Positions 1-10,656 of a stretch of DNA of 37,668 nucleotides are shown here, one piece after another. The stretch is from Candidatus Izemoplasma sp. (GTDB taxonomy: Bacteria > Bacillota_I > Bacilli_A > Izemoplasmatales > Izemoplasmataceae). A model generated the notes under the pieces. That model had not been told where the DNA came from and did not search any database. It worked only from the letters and a program-made list of their open reading frames with translations. Each line of letters begins with the position of its first letter. Position 1 is the stretch's first letter. Both the position numbers and the translations under genes were made by a program. Location of the stretch: the NCBI GenBank assembly GCA_007132465.1, contig SLOP01000040.1, forward strand, positions 1-37,668, in the 5' to 3' direction.

Positions 1-120
1 TCATGCGTGTCATGGTCATCATGCGTGTCATGGTCATCATGCGTGTCATGGTCATCATGCGTGTCATGGTCATCATGCGTGTCATGGTCATCATGCGTGT
101 CATGGTCATCATGCGTGTCA
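1..120. repeat. 18-bp tandem repeat coding a His-rich loop
   Basis: About 6.7 copies of the unit TCATGCGTGTCATGGTCA run head to tail from base 1 to 120, apparently without a substitution, and continue beyond the left edge. Read on the minus strand the unit gives the hexapeptide DDHDTH inside the zinc-binding lipoprotein gene. Perfect identity at synonymous positions means recent expansion or active homogenisation by slippage. Confidence 0.95.
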
Positions 121-491
121 TTATGATTATGATGACCTTCGATCAAATCGACACGTTCACTCACATCCACTATGCGTAACCATTCATTCGCTTCAACACG
201 TATGTATTTATTTACCCAGGGCTCCATGTCATCACCGGTATAAATCAGCATATCGGCATTGAGGATTTGCACTTGACGACTTGGGGTCGGTTCATAATTG
301 TGAACATCGGTTCCAAGCGGTGGCAAGAAAACCACGTCAACATAGTCACCGGCCAATGAGCGGACAATGTCATACTGCGGAAACAACGTCGTCATAATAA
401 TCGGTCTGTCTCGTCCTTCGCGCCCACTGGTGCACGCTCCGAGTACCAACGTGACGATGAGTATTAGCAACAAAAGCATGGTTTTTTTCAT
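1..491 (-). CDS. Zinc-type metal ABC transporter substrate-binding lipoprotein (partial, C-terminus beyond left edge)
   Basis: The first 163 codons of a ZnuA/AdcA-type binding protein, which should capture Zn(II) outside the membrane and hand it to a ZnuBC-type permease. The start is the ATG at 491, 7 nt after an AGGAGA ribosome site (499-504). Residues 1-20 form a lipoprotein signal peptide with lipobox LGAC (Cys20). The mature part begins like the cluster A-I family: 'TTLFPQYDIVRSLAGD', then 'GTDVHNYEP', where His64 is the expected first metal ligand. From about residue 123 the chain enters a His/Asp-rich loop made of six-residue DDHDTH repeats that continues off the window. Such a loop is typical of zinc-specific members and separates this protein from the TroA-like protein at 9742-10656. 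Expression is probably zinc-repressed through the palindrome at 541-561. Partner permease genes are not in view. Confidence 0.9.
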   Translation of the reverse strand, partial: MKKTMLLLLILIVTLVLGACTSGREGRDRPIIMTTLFPQYDIVRSLAGDYVDVVFLPPLGTDVHNYEPTPSRQVQILNADMLIYTGDDMEPWVNKYIRVEANEWLRIVDVSERVDLIEGHHNHNDTHDDHDTHDDHDTHDDHDTHDDHDTHDDHDTHDDHDTH

Positions 492-520: not shown

Positions 521-548
521 ATTATAGCAACACTAAACGCAAATGCAA
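521..548 (-). promoter_or_regulatory. Promoter of the zinc-binding lipoprotein gene
   Basis: On the minus strand a perfect TATAAT (-10, 521-526) lies 16 bp from TTGCAT (-35, 543-548). The -35 hexamer is entirely within the palindrome at 541-561. The ribosome site and ATG follow about 30 bp downstream. Confidence 0.75.
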
Positions 549-561
549 ATGATTTGCATTT
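541..561. promoter_or_regulatory. Fur/Zur-type operator palindrome
   Basis: A perfect 10-1-10 inverted repeat: AAATGCAAAT, centre G, ATTTGCATTT. The inner TGCAAAT-N-ATTTGCA has the 7-1-7 layout of Fur-family boxes (B. subtilis Zur: TCGTAAT-N-ATTACGA). It covers the -35 box of the lipoprotein gene, so a bound repressor would block polymerase. A zinc regulator (Zur) is the likely ligand because the controlled gene is zinc-type; this is inferred. Confidence 0.75.
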
Positions 562-711: not shown

Positions 712-2316
712 GTGAAAACGACGCATCAACACAACGCACCGCATTCGGGCAGACGCACTGCGGTTTATGGCCAACATGGGATGGTTGCAACCACGCAGCC
801 CTTGGCGGCCCAAGCCGGTCTTGACACGCTGAAAGCTGGGGGTAACGCCATCGATGCAGCAATTGCGACGGCGGCAGCGCTCACCGTCGTCGAGCCGACA
901 TCCAATGGCATTGGCGGCGACGCGTTTGCGTTGGTCTATGTAAATGGTGACGTTCACGGATTGAACGGCAGCGGCCGTTCACCATCAATGCTTACAAAAG
1001 AGGCGTTAGACGCGCGGGGACTGAGTTCCATTCCACCGCATGGCGTGTTACCGATTACCGTTCCCGGTGCGCCATCCGCTTGGGTTGCGCTCGCTAAACG
1101 GTTTGGTAACTTGCCGCTGAGTAAAAGCTTAGAACCTGCCATCCGCTATGCCGAGGAAGGTTACCCGGTTTCACCGGTCGTCGCGGCGTATTGGCACGCC
1201 GCCTACACCGCCTATAAGCACCGCTTTGTCGGCGAGGTCTATCAACCGTGGTTTGATACCTTCGCGCCAAACGGACACCCGCCACACGTTGGCGACCTTG
1301 TGACGTTGCCCGGACACGCAACCACGTTAAAAGCCATCGCTGAGACCGACGGTGAAGCTTTTTACCGAGGTGACATTGCCGATCAAATCGACGCCTTGAT
1401 GCAGGCACATGACGGCCTCTTGCGGCGAGAAGACTTAGCATCTCATGAAGCCATCTGGGTCGACCCCATGCGGGTTCGTTATCGCGGGTATGATGTCTAT
1501 GAGTTGCCGCCGAACACACAAGGAATAATCGCGCTTCAAAGCCTTGCCATACTGGAGCGCATGCACCAAGACGGCAAGGTAGGATTCCATGAACGCATTG
1601 AGGCGATCAAGCGCGCTTCTTCTGATGCGTTTAACCATGTTGCTGACGCGGCATCGATGCACATCAAACCCGAAGCACTGTTAGACAAAACCGTTATCGA
1701 ATCCCATGTGGCCAGCATTGGCGTGCAGGCCGCGGATGTGGATGATTTTACTCCACCTCGCGGTGGCACCGTCTATCTCTCTACCGCCGATAATCAGGGT
1801 AACTTGGTCTCCTTCATTCAAAGCAATTACATGGGCTTTGGCTCGGGTGTGGTCGTCCCGGGCACCGGCATTGCTCTGCAAAATCGAGCACACAATTTTA
1901 ATGCGCAAGCCGGGCACCCCAACGTCTACGGCCCGCGAAAACGGACTTACCACACGATTATTCCCGGCATGTTTGTCAAACCCGACGACACGGTCTGCGC
2001 GTTTGGGGTGATGGGTGGATTCATGCAACCTCAGGGTCACATTCAGGTATTAGCGCGATTGATCGATGATGGCGAAGACCCACAAAGTGCCCTGGATGGG
2101 CCGCGATGGTTTTGGGAACAGGGTAGACGTCTTTATGTTGAAGACGACATGCCCGCTGCGGTGCTCAAAACGCTTAAAGAACATGGACACGATGTGGTTA
2201 TCGATACAGGACGAGCACGCTATGGGCGCGGGCAGATTATCTTGCGAGACCTTAAAACAGGCGTGTGTGTCGGTGGCACGGAAAAACGTGCCGATGGTCA
2301 TGTTGCGGTATGGTAA
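712..2316 (+). CDS. Gamma-glutamyltranspeptidase family protein (cytoplasmic, YwrD-like)
   Basis: A 534-residue N-terminal-nucleophile hydrolase of the GGT family, which cleaves or transfers gamma-glutamyl groups from glutathione-like amides. The start is GTG at 712, 5 nt after AAGGAA. The N-terminal part has the family block 'GGNAIDAAIATAAALTVVEP' and 'NGIGGD'. The autoproteolysis site is best placed at Thr353 in 'PRGGTVYLSTAD', followed by 'GSGVVVPGTGIALQNRA' and a C-terminal 'GVMGGFMQPQGHIQVL'. There is no signal peptide, unlike secreted Ggt, so the enzyme should act in the cytoplasm like B. subtilis YwrD. Some relatives are acylases, so the exact substrate is open. It stands alone and ends at a strong terminator. 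Confidence 0.9.
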   Translation: MKTTHQHNAPHSGRRTAVYGQHGMVATTQPLAAQAGLDTLKAGGNAIDAAIATAAALTVVEPTSNGIGGDAFALVYVNGDVHGLNGSGRSPSMLTKEALDARGLSSIPPHGVLPITVPGAPSAWVALAKRFGNLPLSKSLEPAIRYAEEGYPVSPVVAAYWHAAYTAYKHRFVGEVYQPWFDTFAPNGHPPHVGDLVTLPGHATTLKAIAETDGEAFYRGDIADQIDALMQAHDGLLRREDLASHEAIWVDPMRVRYRGYDVYELPPNTQGIIALQSLAILERMHQDGKVGFHERIEAIKRASSDAFNHVADAASMHIKPEALLDKTVIESHVASIGVQAADVDDFTPPRGGTVYLSTADNQGNLVSFIQSNYMGFGSGVVVPGTGIALQNRAHNFNAQAGHPNVYGPRKRTYHTIIPGMFVKPDDTVCAFGVMGGFMQPQGHIQVLARLIDDGEDPQSALDGPRWFWEQGRRLYVEDDMPAAVLKTLKEHGHDVVIDTGRARYGRGQIILRDLKTGVCVGGTEKRADGHVAVW

Positions 2317-6160: not shown

Positions 6161-6817
6161 CTATGTTTCGATGTCCCCAAACATGCGGGCTGTGATGCTT
6201 TGTCCAAGGCGATGGGTTTGATTTTGGTGCTTTACCACTAACGTGTCGCCTAAACTTTCATGACCGACGACGCTAAGACGTGCGCCCAGGGCGATGTCAC
6301 GTGCTTGAAGGTACGTTAGAAGCGGCGCGTGATCTTGCACGCGACGAACGATGAACACATCGCCAGGTTCTGCTTGCGCTAACGTGAGCGTGGCACCTTG
6401 AACAACCTGACCATCAGCGGTTGGAATCGGGTTACCATGGATGCATGTTTTCGGTTTTCCTAAGTAGGTGTACAGCTTATCGAGCACAACCTCGCTGGTG
6501 GCATGTTCTAATTTTTCGGCTTCTTCGTGCAACGCTTCCCAAGAAAGGTCTAGCTTATCCGATAAGAAAACTTCCCAAAGACGGTGAGCGCGAATCATGC
6601 GCACCGCATTCTGGTGTCCTTTCTTTGTCAACCGCACGCCGTGATAGGGTGTGTAGTTCACGAGGTTTTTGTCCGATAAGCGTTTCAACATCTCGTTGAC
6701 ACTTTGCGCCGTGTGGCCTAGGGCTGTTGACAGGTCGGCGGTTTTGACGCGTTCTGACTGCGTGTTTGTGCTCAGTTCATACAGTTGTTTTAAGTAATCT
6801 TCTTCCGCTCGATTCAT
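6161..6817 (-). CDS. troR: DtxR/MntR/TroR-family metal-dependent repressor
   Basis: A 218-residue regulator. The winged helix spans about residues 5-70 ('VKTADLSTALGHTAQSVNEMLKRLSDKNLVNY...GVRLTKKG'), followed by a metal-binding dimer domain and a C-terminal SH3/FeoA-like domain (about 140-215), giving the TroR/ScaR/SloR length rather than the 142-residue MntR. Residues matching the MntR metal site are present: Asp7 ('EEDYLKQLY'), His78 ('RAHRLWEVFL'), Glu101, Glu104 and His105 ('EEAEKLEH'). It is the last gene of the five-gene uptake operon, joined to troD by an ATGA overlap, the order of troABCDR. It should repress the operon when Mn(II), Fe(II) or Zn(II) is replete. Which metal is not decided by sequence. 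Confidence 0.88.
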   Translation of the reverse strand: MNRAEEDYLKQLYELSTNTQSERVKTADLSTALGHTAQSVNEMLKRLSDKNLVNYTPYHGVRLTKKGHQNAVRMIRAHRLWEVFLSDKLDLSWEALHEEAEKLEHATSEVVLDKLYTYLGKPKTCIHGNPIPTADGQVVQGATLTLAQAEPGDVFIVRRVQDHAPLLTYLQARDIALGARLSVVGHESLGDTLVVKHQNQTHRLGQSITARMFGDIET

Positions 6818-7932
6818 CTGATTGTCCCCCTTGAATCGCTGACAACCGTGCGATAAAATGCATGCCCGGTTTCTGTCAGTTTAATGATGTTGCCTTCGAG
6901 GCGAATGTAGTGTTGCGCGGTCGCTCGTTGGACAATTTTTTCGCAAAATGCCCGCGACCAGTTCATGTGTTCGTGCAGGGTGTTCGCGTTGAGTTCAATC
7001 GCCGCATCCTCAGATTCTGCATGGTTTTCAACGTGAACGAGCAACCCAGCAAGCGCGATGTGTTCTCGTTGCTTCTTTGTTCGAAACGCTTCAAACAAGA
7101 GTCCTCGCTTGGGTGAAAGCAACATCGCCGAGAAGAAGCTTGCCATCGTCATCGTAGCAATCGTGCCTGATATGGTGACATCAAGCCCCCACGCGAGCGC
7201 ATAACCAACCACGCTGTTGAACGTCGCGATGGCCAAGGTTAGCACGATGGTATGGAACAAGGTCTTGGTAAACAGCAGTGCCGTGATGGGCGGGCCAATC
7301 ATCAACGCGATGACCAAAATAGCACCAACCGCATTAAAGGCCGCAACGGCCGTGAGGGAGACTATCGTCATCAACCCGTAATGCATCAAGACAGCTGAAA
7401 AGCCAAGCACGCTCGCAAGGGCTGGATCGAAGGTCGAGAGTTTGATTTCTTTATAGAACACCGACAACAAACCCACGTTAATGGCTAAAACCACGGCCAT
7501 CACCCACAGTGAGGCTGGCCCTAGGTCTCTATCAAACAACATAACCCGGTCAAAGATGACAAATTCGAGGTTCCCTAGCAATACCATGTCAATGTCGAGG
7601 TGAACGTTCCGGAACTGGGTGGTCACGATGATGACAGCAATTGAAAACAAGAACGTAAAAACAACCCCAATGGCCGCATCTTCCTTCACGCGTCGCGTTT
7701 GAATCAACGCTTCAATCAAAAAGACCGTTACCACACCCATGAGCGTTGCGGCCACCAACAAAAACGGACTCGTCAAATCAGCCACAACCATGAACGCAAG
7801 CACAATCCCAAGCAGTATCGTGTGTGAGATGGCATCGGTCAACATCGACAGACGACGCAACACGAGGAACACGCCGACTAAGCTCGTGGCCAACGCCGTC
7901 AACACGGCGACAGCAAGAATTTCAACGTTCAT
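6814..7932 (-). CDS. troD: Metal ABC transporter permease with C-terminal winged-helix-like tail
   Basis: A 372-residue permease of the ABC-3 family. Residues 1-280 hold about eight to nine membrane segments, with family blocks 'LRRLSMLTDAISHTILLGIVLAF' and 'TIVSLTAVAAFNAVGAILVIALMIGPPITALLFT'. Typical permeases end near 280-300. Here about 90 more soluble residues follow, ending 'IRLEGNIIKLTETGHAFYRTVV', which resembles the wing and recognition part of DtxR-type domains. It pairs with the permease at 7929-9017 (ATGA overlap) to form the channel for a Mn/Zn/Fe importer. The tail may be a regulatory domain; its function is unknown to me. Confidence 0.88.
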   Translation of the reverse strand: MNVEILAVAVLTALATSLVGVFLVLRRLSMLTDAISHTILLGIVLAFMVVADLTSPFLLVAATLMGVVTVFLIEALIQTRRVKEDAAIGVVFTFLFSIAVIIVTTQFRNVHLDIDMVLLGNLEFVIFDRVMLFDRDLGPASLWVMAVVLAINVGLLSVFYKEIKLSTFDPALASVLGFSAVLMHYGLMTIVSLTAVAAFNAVGAILVIALMIGPPITALLFTKTLFHTIVLTLAIATFNSVVGYALAWGLDVTISGTIATMTMASFFSAMLLSPKRGLLFEAFRTKKQREHIALAGLLVHVENHAESEDAAIELNANTLHEHMNWSRAFCEKIVQRATAQHYIRLEGNIIKLTETGHAFYRTVVSDSRGTIR

Positions 7933-9017
7933 TGGCGTCCCCCCTCAATGATGTCTCGCACCTTCTGTTTGCCTTTGTCAGTCATCTCAACTTGGCCAGC
8001 CTTGATGGTCGCGAAGCGTTGATCGATAAACTGGCTATATTGCCCGCGTTCATCAGCGGAAAACGGGCCGTGTTCATACAGGTGAATAAGGCGCTTATAT
8101 TTGATAATTCGCCGTTTATAATACGCCACAGAAACCCGGTGTTTCACAATGCCATGTCGCCATGAGAAAAACATCGTAAAAAGCACAAACCCGCTAAGCA
8201 ACATCACCACTACCGGGCCCGTTGGTAAACTTGCTCGGTCTGAGCCAACGTAGCTTAAGTAGGTGCCAAACGCGCCAGCACCAGCGCCAATGACACCGGC
8301 CAAGAGCGCATTAACCATAAAACGGTTAGACAATTGCCTGGAGGCAACGCTCGGGGCGATGAGTAGCGCACTCATCAACACCACACCGATGGTGCGGATG
8401 CCGATGACGACCACCAAAACCACGGTGATGGTTAACAAGCCCGACGCGGCGCGCTCGCTTAACCCAACGCTACGGTAAAAAGGCTCGTCAAAAACATAGA
8501 GTTTTAACTCCTTCCAAAATAACACCAACACAAGAAAAATGACCAATGAAACAGCGATGATTAACACCACATCGGCACGCACCATGTTCGCGGCTTGGCC
8601 GAAGATAAACGTGGATAATCCCGCTTGCGATGCGCCACCCGTTTTTTGCAAATGGCTCATCAGAACCTGTCCCAGGCCGAAAAAACCCGACAAAATTAAC
8701 GCCATGCCGGCATCAAACTTAACGGTGGTTCGCCGTTTTATTGCATTCAGCAAAACCATCGCCACCACCGACGCGATTGTCGCGCCAATCAGCAACACCG
8801 GCAGATCGCGAACCTGCGTGACCATGAAGGCGATGACGACACCCGGCAACGCGGCGTGCGAAAGGGCATCACCGACGAGCGCTTGTTTGCGAAGGACAAT
8901 GAACGTGCCTAAAAACCCGGCAATGAAGCCGAGAAACATCGTCCCGATGGTGACCACCCTCAAAGTATAGGGCCAGTTTGTCACAAGCCATAACTCAGGC
9001 ATCGTGATCACGCTCAT
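7929..9017 (-). CDS. troC: Metal ABC transporter permease with C-terminal tail
   Basis: A 362-residue ABC-3 permease. Membrane segments fill residues 18-285, with 'LRKQALVGDALSHAALPGVVIAF' (coupling region) and 'TIGVVLMSALLIAPSVASRQL'. It is followed by about 75 charged residues rich in Arg/Lys/Tyr, ending 'QVEMTDKGKQKVRDIIEGG', again similar to the C-terminal edge of a winged helix. Its start lies 23 bp inside the ATPase gene and its stop overlaps the next permease, so translation is coupled. With the partner permease, ATPase and binding protein it makes one importer. Both permeases carrying a helix-wing tail is a shared peculiarity of this operon. Confidence 0.88.
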   Translation of the reverse strand: MSVITMPELWLVTNWPYTLRVVTIGTMFLGFIAGFLGTFIVLRKQALVGDALSHAALPGVVIAFMVTQVRDLPVLLIGATIASVVAMVLLNAIKRRTTVKFDAGMALILSGFFGLGQVLMSHLQKTGGASQAGLSTFIFGQAANMVRADVVLIIAVSLVIFLVLVLFWKELKLYVFDEPFYRSVGLSERAASGLLTITVVLVVVIGIRTIGVVLMSALLIAPSVASRQLSNRFMVNALLAGVIGAGAGAFGTYLSYVGSDRASLPTGPVVVMLLSGFVLFTMFFSWRHGIVKHRVSVAYYKRRIIKYKRLIHLYEHGPFSADERGQYSQFIDQRFATIKAGQVEMTDKGKQKVRDIIEGGRQ

Positions 9018-9738
9018 GCGACATCAGGGTGTCTGTTTGATAGGCGTTACGAATGTTGCCTTCAGTGAACGTCTCACCCACAGGGCCCACCGCGACAAGC
9101 TTAATGTTCAACAGCGCAACCCAATCGAAATAGGCCGGTACAGTGTTCAGGTCGTGGTGCACAACGATAACGGTCTTCCCTTCGTTTTTCAACGCTTTTA
9201 GCAGGGTTACGATGGCTTTTTCGGTCTTCACGTCAACCCCTTGAAATGGCTCATCCATGAAATAGATATCCGCATCTTGAACCAGCGCGCGAGCAAGGAA
9301 TACCCGTTGTTGTTGACCTCCGGAAAGTTCAGAAATCTGACGGTTTTTATAGGCCAGCATGTCGACTTTATCGAGTGCTTTAACCACGGCGTCACGTTCC
9401 TTTTTCCCGGGACGTTTAATCCATCCTAGATGGCCGTAACGTCCCATCATCACGACATCAAACACCGTCGTGGGAAAATCCCAGTCTACGCTTCCCTTCT
9501 GGGGAACATAGGCGATGCGTTTATGTACTTTTTTGTATGTTTCACCCGCAAACAACACCGACCCTGTGAGCGGTTTTACAAGGCCAAGCGCGGCTTTGAT
9601 TAATGTCGTTTTTCCCGCGCCGTTAGGGCCAACGATTCCAAGCAGCACACCTTGGGGGACGTCGAGATCAACATCCCAAAGCACAGGCTGTTTATCATAC
9701 GCAACCGTCAAATCTTCCACATGCAAAGCGTATTCCAT
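8995..9738 (-). CDS. troB: Metal ABC transporter ATP-binding protein
   Basis: A 247-residue ABC ATPase driving the metal importer. Walker A is GPNGAGKTT (residues 37-45), the Q-loop is in 'YVPQKGSVDWDFP' (Gln80), the signature LSGGQ is at 138-142, Walker B 'IYFMDEP' at 158-164, and the switch His is in 'VVHHDL' (194/195). The 'VPQKGSVDWDFPTTVFDVVMMGRYG' stretch is typical of the MntB/TroB/ZnuC group. A GGAGGAAT sequence precedes the ATG at 9738, only 3 bp after the binding-protein stop. Confidence 0.95.
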   Translation of the reverse strand: MEYALHVEDLTVAYDKQPVLWDVDLDVPQGVLLGIVGPNGAGKTTLIKAALGLVKPLTGSVLFAGETYKKVHKRIAYVPQKGSVDWDFPTTVFDVVMMGRYGHLGWIKRPGKKERDAVVKALDKVDMLAYKNRQISELSGGQQQRVFLARALVQDADIYFMDEPFQGVDVKTEKAIVTLLKALKNEGKTVIVVHHDLNTVPAYFDWVALLNIKLVAVGPVGETFTEGNIRNAYQTDTLMSHERDHDA

Positions 9739-9741
9739 TGT

Positions 9742-10656
9742 CTATTCCTCCTCGGAAAGGGCGTTCACAATCAAATCCACGTTTGCGCGAAACGTGCGAA
9801 TGTAGGTTTCGGTGGCTCGCGAGGCATCTCCTGTGGAATCGGAGTAAAGCGCGCCACCAATAACCACGTTATGGCCGAGCGATTCCGCCGCTTCTTTCAC
9901 TGAACGAATGGTGCTTTCAGGCACCGATGATTCCACAAATATCGCTGGAACTTCAAGCGACGCAACCAGTTGGGCCAACGCCTCAATGTCAGCGATGCTG
10001 GCCTCAGCCGAGGTTGAAATTCCTTGCACAGCATGCACTTCTACGCCGTATGCACGGCCAAAATAGGCAAACGCATCATGCGCGGTGATGAGCACTCTGC
10101 GTTCAGGTGAGAGTTCATCAAGGCGGCCACGGATATGCGCATCGAGCCACGACAGTTCAATGAGGTAAGCCTCAAGGCGGCGGCTGTATAGTTCGGCGTT
10201 GTCTCCGTCTAGCAAGGCAAAGGTCGTGGCGAGCTGCTCAGCAGCTTTCGCCCACAGGCTGACGTCAAACCAAATATGCGGGTCAGGGGTGTGTTCATCT
10301 TCGTAAATCACATCCCCCTCTTCAAGCGCATCAGCCAGCACGATGAGCGTGGTTCCTTGAAGGTTTTGCAGGACCTGTCCGAAGCGTTCTTCTAAGTTCA
10401 ATCCGTTGACAATCAACACGTCCGCTGCCGCAATGGCGGCGGTGTCGCTTTGACGTGGTTGGTAGTCGTGGGGATCAATGCCCACGCCCATTAAGGTGAT
10501 TACTTCCACGGCGTTCCCGCCAATCGCACGGGCGAGATCACCAGCATAGGTGGTGGTCGCCACCACTCGAAGGCGTTCACCGCGTTCGCTGTTGCCACAC
10601 GCGACCAGACTCATTAGCATCAGGATGAAAGCAGTGATGAGTAGCATACGTTTCAT
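9742..10656 (-). CDS. troA: TroA-like metal-binding lipoprotein
   Basis: A 304-residue cluster A-I solute-binding protein anchored as a lipoprotein (lipobox LVAC, Cys20). Likely metal ligands are His63 ('GIDPHDYQP'), His127 ('PDPHIWFD'), His193 ('TAHDAFAYF') and Asp273 ('GGALYSDS'). The third ligand is His, as in TroA, rather than Glu as in PsaA. There is no His-rich loop, unlike the protein at the left edge. 'GISTSAEASIADI' is a conserved family stretch. First gene of the operon; AGAGGGAT precedes ATG 10656. TroA-type proteins bind zinc and manganese, so the physiological metal remains open. Confidence 0.93.
   Translation of the reverse strand: MKRMLLITAFILMLMSLVACGNSERGERLRVVATTTYAGDLARAIGGNAVEVITLMGVGIDPHDYQPRQSDTAAIAAADVLIVNGLNLEERFGQVLQNLQGTTLIVLADALEEGDVIYEDEHTPDPHIWFDVSLWAKAAEQLATTFALLDGDNAELYSRRLEAYLIELSWLDAHIRGRLDELSPERRVLITAHDAFAYFGRAYGVEVHAVQGISTSAEASIADIEALAQLVASLEVPAIFVESSVPESTIRSVKEAAESLGHNVVIGGALYSDSTGDASRATETYIRTFRANVDLIVNALSEEE

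Follow-up and report, generated by a model that had tools for sequence, protein, structure and literature searches.

A palindromic TGCAAAT box over the znuA promoter of a Candidatus Izemoplasma genome is a predicted operator of the zinc uptake repressor Zur

Zur boxes often overlap the −35 hexamer (PMC6103462), and their consensus in Gram-positive bacteria is given as TAAATCGTAATNATTACGATTTA, while Desulfovibrio znuABC-zur operons carry ATGCAACNNNGTTGCAT, a 17-bp palindrome with three central bases (PMC545781). In Clostridium thermocellum, DAP-seq of Fur_1691 gave the site TGCAAATcATTTGCA, which precedes the zinc ABC operon clo1313_1690-1688 and is conserved in C. clariflavum, C. stercorarium, and Caldicellulosiruptor (PMC8457756). 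The support given there is DAP-seq, with no EMSA support listed, and the zinc response lay outside the study. The iron regulator Fur of Magnetospirillum gryphiswaldense (MgFur) was co-crystallised with DNA containing TGCAAATCATTTGCA, a modified feoAB1 operator (PDB 4rb3) that the authors had altered toward a near-perfect repeat and in which Tyr56 and Arg57 read T and G bases (PMC4506495).

We analyzed a window of 37,668 nt, meaning the whole stretch of DNA under study, which corresponds to contig C12 in a genome of Candidatus Izemoplasma sp. that measures 1.43 Mb and is 99% complete (Table 1). An earlier note had pointed to a perfect palindrome overlapping the promoter of a zinc lipoprotein. 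We confirmed this palindrome, AAATGCAAATGATTTGCATTT, at 541–561, where the letters read AAATGCAAAT-G-ATTTGCATTT; no other perfect 10-1-10 palindrome occurs in the window, and the gene downstream encodes a ZnuA-family lipoprotein (PF01297, E 3.7e-18). With TATAAT at 521–526 and the palindrome reaching 561, the range 521–561 given in the note extends from the −10 hexamer through the palindrome's far end. A minus-strand promoter scan matched 10 of the 12 consensus positions, bearing out a −35 inside the palindrome and a consensus −10; the spacing is 17 nt for TTTGCA, and the 16 claimed earlier fits TTGCAT as the −35. Because 15 of 200 windows simulated with a first-order Markov model contained at least one perfect 10-1-10 palindrome (mean 0.075), the symmetry by itself is weak, suggestive evidence. 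Taken with what follows, we consider it very likely that the palindrome is the operator of Zur (P0002), which is itself encoded by the last gene of the operon it would control, znuA-znuC-znuB-zur.

Table 1. Positions of the promoter, operator, and coding features, in window coordinates unless a locus is named
Feature	Position	Strand	Basis
znuA, first 163 codons (lipoprotein signal, N-terminal half), running off the contig	1..491	-	start at 491
18-bp tandem repeat encoding (THDDHD)n, the His/Asp-rich ZnuA loop; assembly break	1..119	-	sequence
Shine–Dalgarno AGGAG, 8 nt 5' of the start codon	500..504	-	sequence reading
−10 hexamer TATAAT	521..526 (526-521)	-	promoter scan
Predicted Zur operator, perfect 10-1-10 palindrome	541..561	.	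symmetry, conservation upstream of znuA orthologues, best profile match in the genome
7-1-7 core TGCAAATGATTTGCA, TGCAAAT-G-ATTTGCA	544..558	.	core shared with the DAP-seq site of C. thermocellum Fur_1691 (PMC8457756) and with MgFur co-crystal DNA (PMC4506495)
−35 hexamer TTTGCA, within the operator	544..549 (549-544)	-	promoter scan
His-rich domain	L026 682-1401 and 1918-2268; also L195, L191, L020, L018, and others		alignment A4

The site resembles that of C. thermocellum Fur_1691 most directly: it has the same 15-bp core and the same kind of target, with TGCAAATNATTTGCA standing before a zinc ABC operon as in a TGCAAAT-type Zur box, and the number of Fur_1691 places it adjacent to the transporter genes. 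Here zur lies within the controlled operon, whereas self-regulation of Fur_1691 is not reported as conserved (PMC8457756); the likeness between Fur_1691 and P0002 is one of site, target, and gene neighborhood rather than of directly compared orthology. With the Gram-positive Zur box the palindrome shares an odd length with a single central base, the outer AAAT and inner AAT of each arm, and zinc uptake targets, but the middle of the arm is GCA in place of CGT (PMC545781). The core thus differs from TAAATCGTAATNATTACGATTTA, and from the B. subtilis-type core TCGTAATNATTACGA, at three positions per arm and not at two as had been stated. The znuABC-zur order and TGCAA half-sites are those of Desulfovibrio, whose palindrome has the longer center, and MgFur offers the shared TGCAAATCATTTGCA, a matching fold, and a Tyr–Arg recognition pair, although it regulates iron. 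Among the papers searched on Zur and Mur or on zinc in Izimaplasma and Mollicutes, we found the core in PMC8457756 and PMC4506495; curated clostridial Zur motifs may exist besides. The motif is not new, being that of the Fur_1691 DAP-seq site TGCAAATcATTTGCA ahead of the zinc ABC operon in C. thermocellum.

The window ends within znuA, and a second contig of the genome (G000:C14) begins in the identical 18-bp repeat (C14:1-120). The remainder of znuA occupies G000:C14:3-683 and is followed on that contig by closely spaced genes for an ABC ATPase (znuC), a permease (znuB), and a Fur-family protein (zur). As C12 ends and C14 starts in the same znuA repeat, we infer that the two join across the assembly gap and that the operon order is znuA-znuC-znuB-zur. 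A search of P0001 against viral contigs gave no match. Control of the divergent γ-glutamyltransferase gene (712–2316, plus strand) by the operator is unsupported, and no plus-strand promoter over the box was found. The leader of that gene carries a perfect 10-bp inverted repeat, TATAGTAAAT-8-ATTTACTATA, at 672–699, which is possibly the operator of another regulator. Farther along the window, at 6161–10656, a DtxR/MntR-type regulator stands beside a second, manganese-type ABC importer that includes a separate binding protein of the ZnuA family, and no TGCAAAT box was found at this operon.

The genome encodes three Fur-family proteins (P0002, P0003, and P0004), so the earlier note's reading does not lack a regulator, and one of them lies inside the probable zinc importer operon. 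This protein, P0002, contains the Fur-family domain (PF01475, E 5.2e-31), and its predicted model (pLDDT 88.6) matches Fur, PerR, and Zur structures, superposing on chain 4rb3_D of DNA-bound MgFur with TM scores of 0.80/0.88 and an rmsd of 1.8 Å. It scored 94 bits against Fur, 87 against PerR, and 40 against E. coli-type Zur, all under the cut-off; we call it Zur for its linkage to, and predicted control of, high-affinity zinc uptake genes across the inferred C12–C14 join. The closest named zur (L125, 76% identity) carries the label of a Candidatus Izimaplasma MAG, and Izimaplasma or Mollicutes MAGs also account for most of those ranking after it. The two CxxC pairs of the structural zinc site (C98, C101, C138, and C141) are invariant in all 27 Zur sequences of the group, as is Tyr60–Arg61 in the recognition helix; since the latter corresponds by motif to the MgFur pair, and the model superposes on 4rb3_D, binding of a dimer to the core is structurally reasonable. 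The cysteine that immediately precedes the His cluster in M. tuberculosis Zur is absent from P0002. At another place, column 110 of alignment A2, Cys110–Pro111 is likewise invariant in 27 of 27, and as a lead from sequence we note that it may replace the missing actinobacterial cysteine and form a different sensory site.

We sought znuA orthologues in 61 genomes and scored 30 upstream regions over 20 defined positions. Nineteen of the 30 scored at least 15 of 20, compared with 39 of 6,000 shuffles. In all 19, one of which (L041) has the right arm only, a −10 with five to six of six matches accompanies the −35 that the box contains, at a spacing of 17–18 nt; the background for a −10 at 16–18 nt was 3.6% of other positions. 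Among the 11 regions under the threshold (L016, L020, L026, L027, and L034–L040), L026 of G019 and L020 of G017 have the box farther upstream, before a preceding His-rich lipoprotein gene. Some promoters (L017, L023, L025, and L077) contain two boxes ∼22 to 54 bp apart, and such pairs may give stronger or graded repression.

The box also tracks the regulator. With a cut-off of at least 90 bits for Zur orthologues (27 genomes) and of E 0.01 for the box, 22 of the 61 genomes had both, 31 had neither, 5 had Zur only (G003, G017, G019, G026, and G044), and 3 had the box only (G001, G032, and G058; Fisher test, 6e-9); G058 has a diverged Fur-family gene ∼2 kb after znuA. A second family provided 16 genomes with no sequence in the model, G058 being excluded as the source of one training site. 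There, at the laxer cut-off of E 0.02, all 7 genomes with Zur had the box and none of the 9 lacking Zur did; at E 0.01 the counts were 6 of 7 and 0 of 9. Beyond those used for training, sites were found before znuA (G038, G040, G042, G044, G057, and G060), zur (G052), znuC (G006, G012, G021, and G022), and the His-rich lipoprotein gene (G002, G012, G015, G017, G019, and G032). Three candidates look like chance and were rejected: the site of G010, a genome without Zur, is within an unrelated frame or where that frame starts, and those of G021:C95 and G058:C46 are inside coding frames. A motif scattered at random or before unrelated genes, which would have spoken against a Zur site, is not what we observed.

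Within the window's own genome the picture is that of a single operator. A profile built from the 19 sites found one strong site (E 1e-5), the next match having an E value of 0.13. The expected enrichment of the core did not materialize: at up to two mismatches it occurs in 5 places against 8 for the reversed control, the four besides the operator each having two mismatches. Nor was a box found before a zinc-free ribosomal protein gene; the genome has a single L31 gene and two matches to the cobW family, and the profile search detected no box at any of them. This search gave no second strong site and no multigene Zur regulon with added targets of the zinc-free ribosomal protein or COG0523 kind, which membership of Zur does not require. 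Two weak matches were discarded as operators: C28:14543 falls where a tRNA-synthetase-like frame ends, ahead of a cold-shock gene, and C14:15425 is within a reading frame. The B. subtilis-type box occurs at up to three mismatches in 68 places, compared with 31 for the reversed pattern, the best having two mismatches.

A contig search that took 9 of the group's 27 zur sequences as queries yielded 64 loci, and 31 of these contained a site scoring at least 20, in comparison with 1 of 640 simulated loci. By frame reading, 28 of the 31 sites were assigned to a gene that they precede: 21 to one for a solute-binding lipoprotein, 5 to one for an ABC ATPase, and 2 to zur, with L139, L159, and L175 outside this assignment. 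Six of the loci (L126, L127, L128, L130, L132, and L160) belong to the window's own family, which leaves 25 from other labels, mostly Clostridia. The 33 loci without a site at this score include Peptoniphilus and its relatives, Petrocella, and Cyanobacteria. The proposal that the core may define the Zur motif of this lineage is supported by conservation and by co-occurrence with Zur, but Clostridia have the motif as well, and it was already published for C. thermocellum.

Under the preferred reading, a zinc-bound Zur dimer would occupy both arms of the palindrome, cover the −35 hexamer, and block RNA polymerase; at low zinc the dimer would leave, and the importer, together with more repressor, would be made. 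Zinc as the co-repressor is deduced from the targets of the box. The core by itself does not tell which metal is sensed, as it also fits the iron regulator MgFur (PMC4506495). That co-crystal, the scores of P0002, highest against Fur models, and its lack of the actinobacterial Zur cysteine would all suit an iron- or manganese-sensing protein, a true Fur or a Mur, that controls the importer by happenstance. We regard this as improbable: the targets in relatives are znuA, znuC, zur, and the His-rich lipoprotein, with no iron gene recognized among them, and the manganese-type ABC operon, which lacks the box, adjoins a separate regulator of DtxR/MntR type.

Binding by the PerR-like P0003 or by P0004 would be compatible with their membership of the Fur family, whose boxes have the 7-1-7 frame in common. 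Yet a palindrome of another sequence, TTGTAATCATTACAT, lies directly 5' of the start of P0003 (L007 1878-1892; G000:C18:29932-29946) and is probably the genome's PerR-type operator, and the TGCAAAT box follows the orthologues of P0002, many genomes with only weaker Fur-family matches having no strong box; we thus hold this assignment to be very improbable. The simulated palindromes recall that the symmetry could be a chance or promoter feature with no regulator, the TTTGCAT arm being kept merely as a −35, and the distant znuA-family promoters of G011, G025, and G031 (L041, L038, and L040), genomes with no 90-bit Zur, do have the right arm alone. This explanation is extremely improbable in view of the left arm, which a promoter does not need and which is conserved in genomes that have Zur, in a second family, and also among Clostridia.

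Of the 61 genomes, 12 encode a 117-residue His-rich domain with the motif AYVHGDHWHGSLP ... HGDHVHI (alignment A4), both as separate lipoproteins and as one to three inserts in the ZnuA loop. The box was present before the separate lipoproteins in all six genomes for which promoter sequence was available. Against Pfam and NCBIfam the domain gave weak single matches only and no convincing family; it is predicted to be all-beta (pLDDT 92.8), and the model weakly resembles Ig-like S-layer and Rib domains (best E 9e-4). It was found in 1 of 392 genomes sampled across the phylum, that genome itself being a member of the family. No copy was found in the window's genome, where the simple THDDHD repeat takes the place of the domain. 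This lineage-restricted domain is more novel than the operator itself, and we propose it as a new candidate zinc-binding domain.

As a tentative extension, Izemoplasma-type bacteria and many Clostridia might share a distinct Zur subclass that has an operator code of its own, TGCAAAT, and a sensory cysteine at a shifted place (C110–P111, invariant in the Izimaplasma order); in this lineage it might control a lineage-restricted, Ig-like His-rich domain that scavenges zinc both as a lipoprotein in its own right and, in one to three copies, as an insert in the metal-binding loop of ZnuA. The analysis supports the assignment of a zinc-repressor operator in a lineage that is uncultured. The TGCAAAT code, known in vitro from one Clostridium, extends over many Clostridia and relatives of Izimaplasma, and zinc regulons in such MAGs become readable by sequence.
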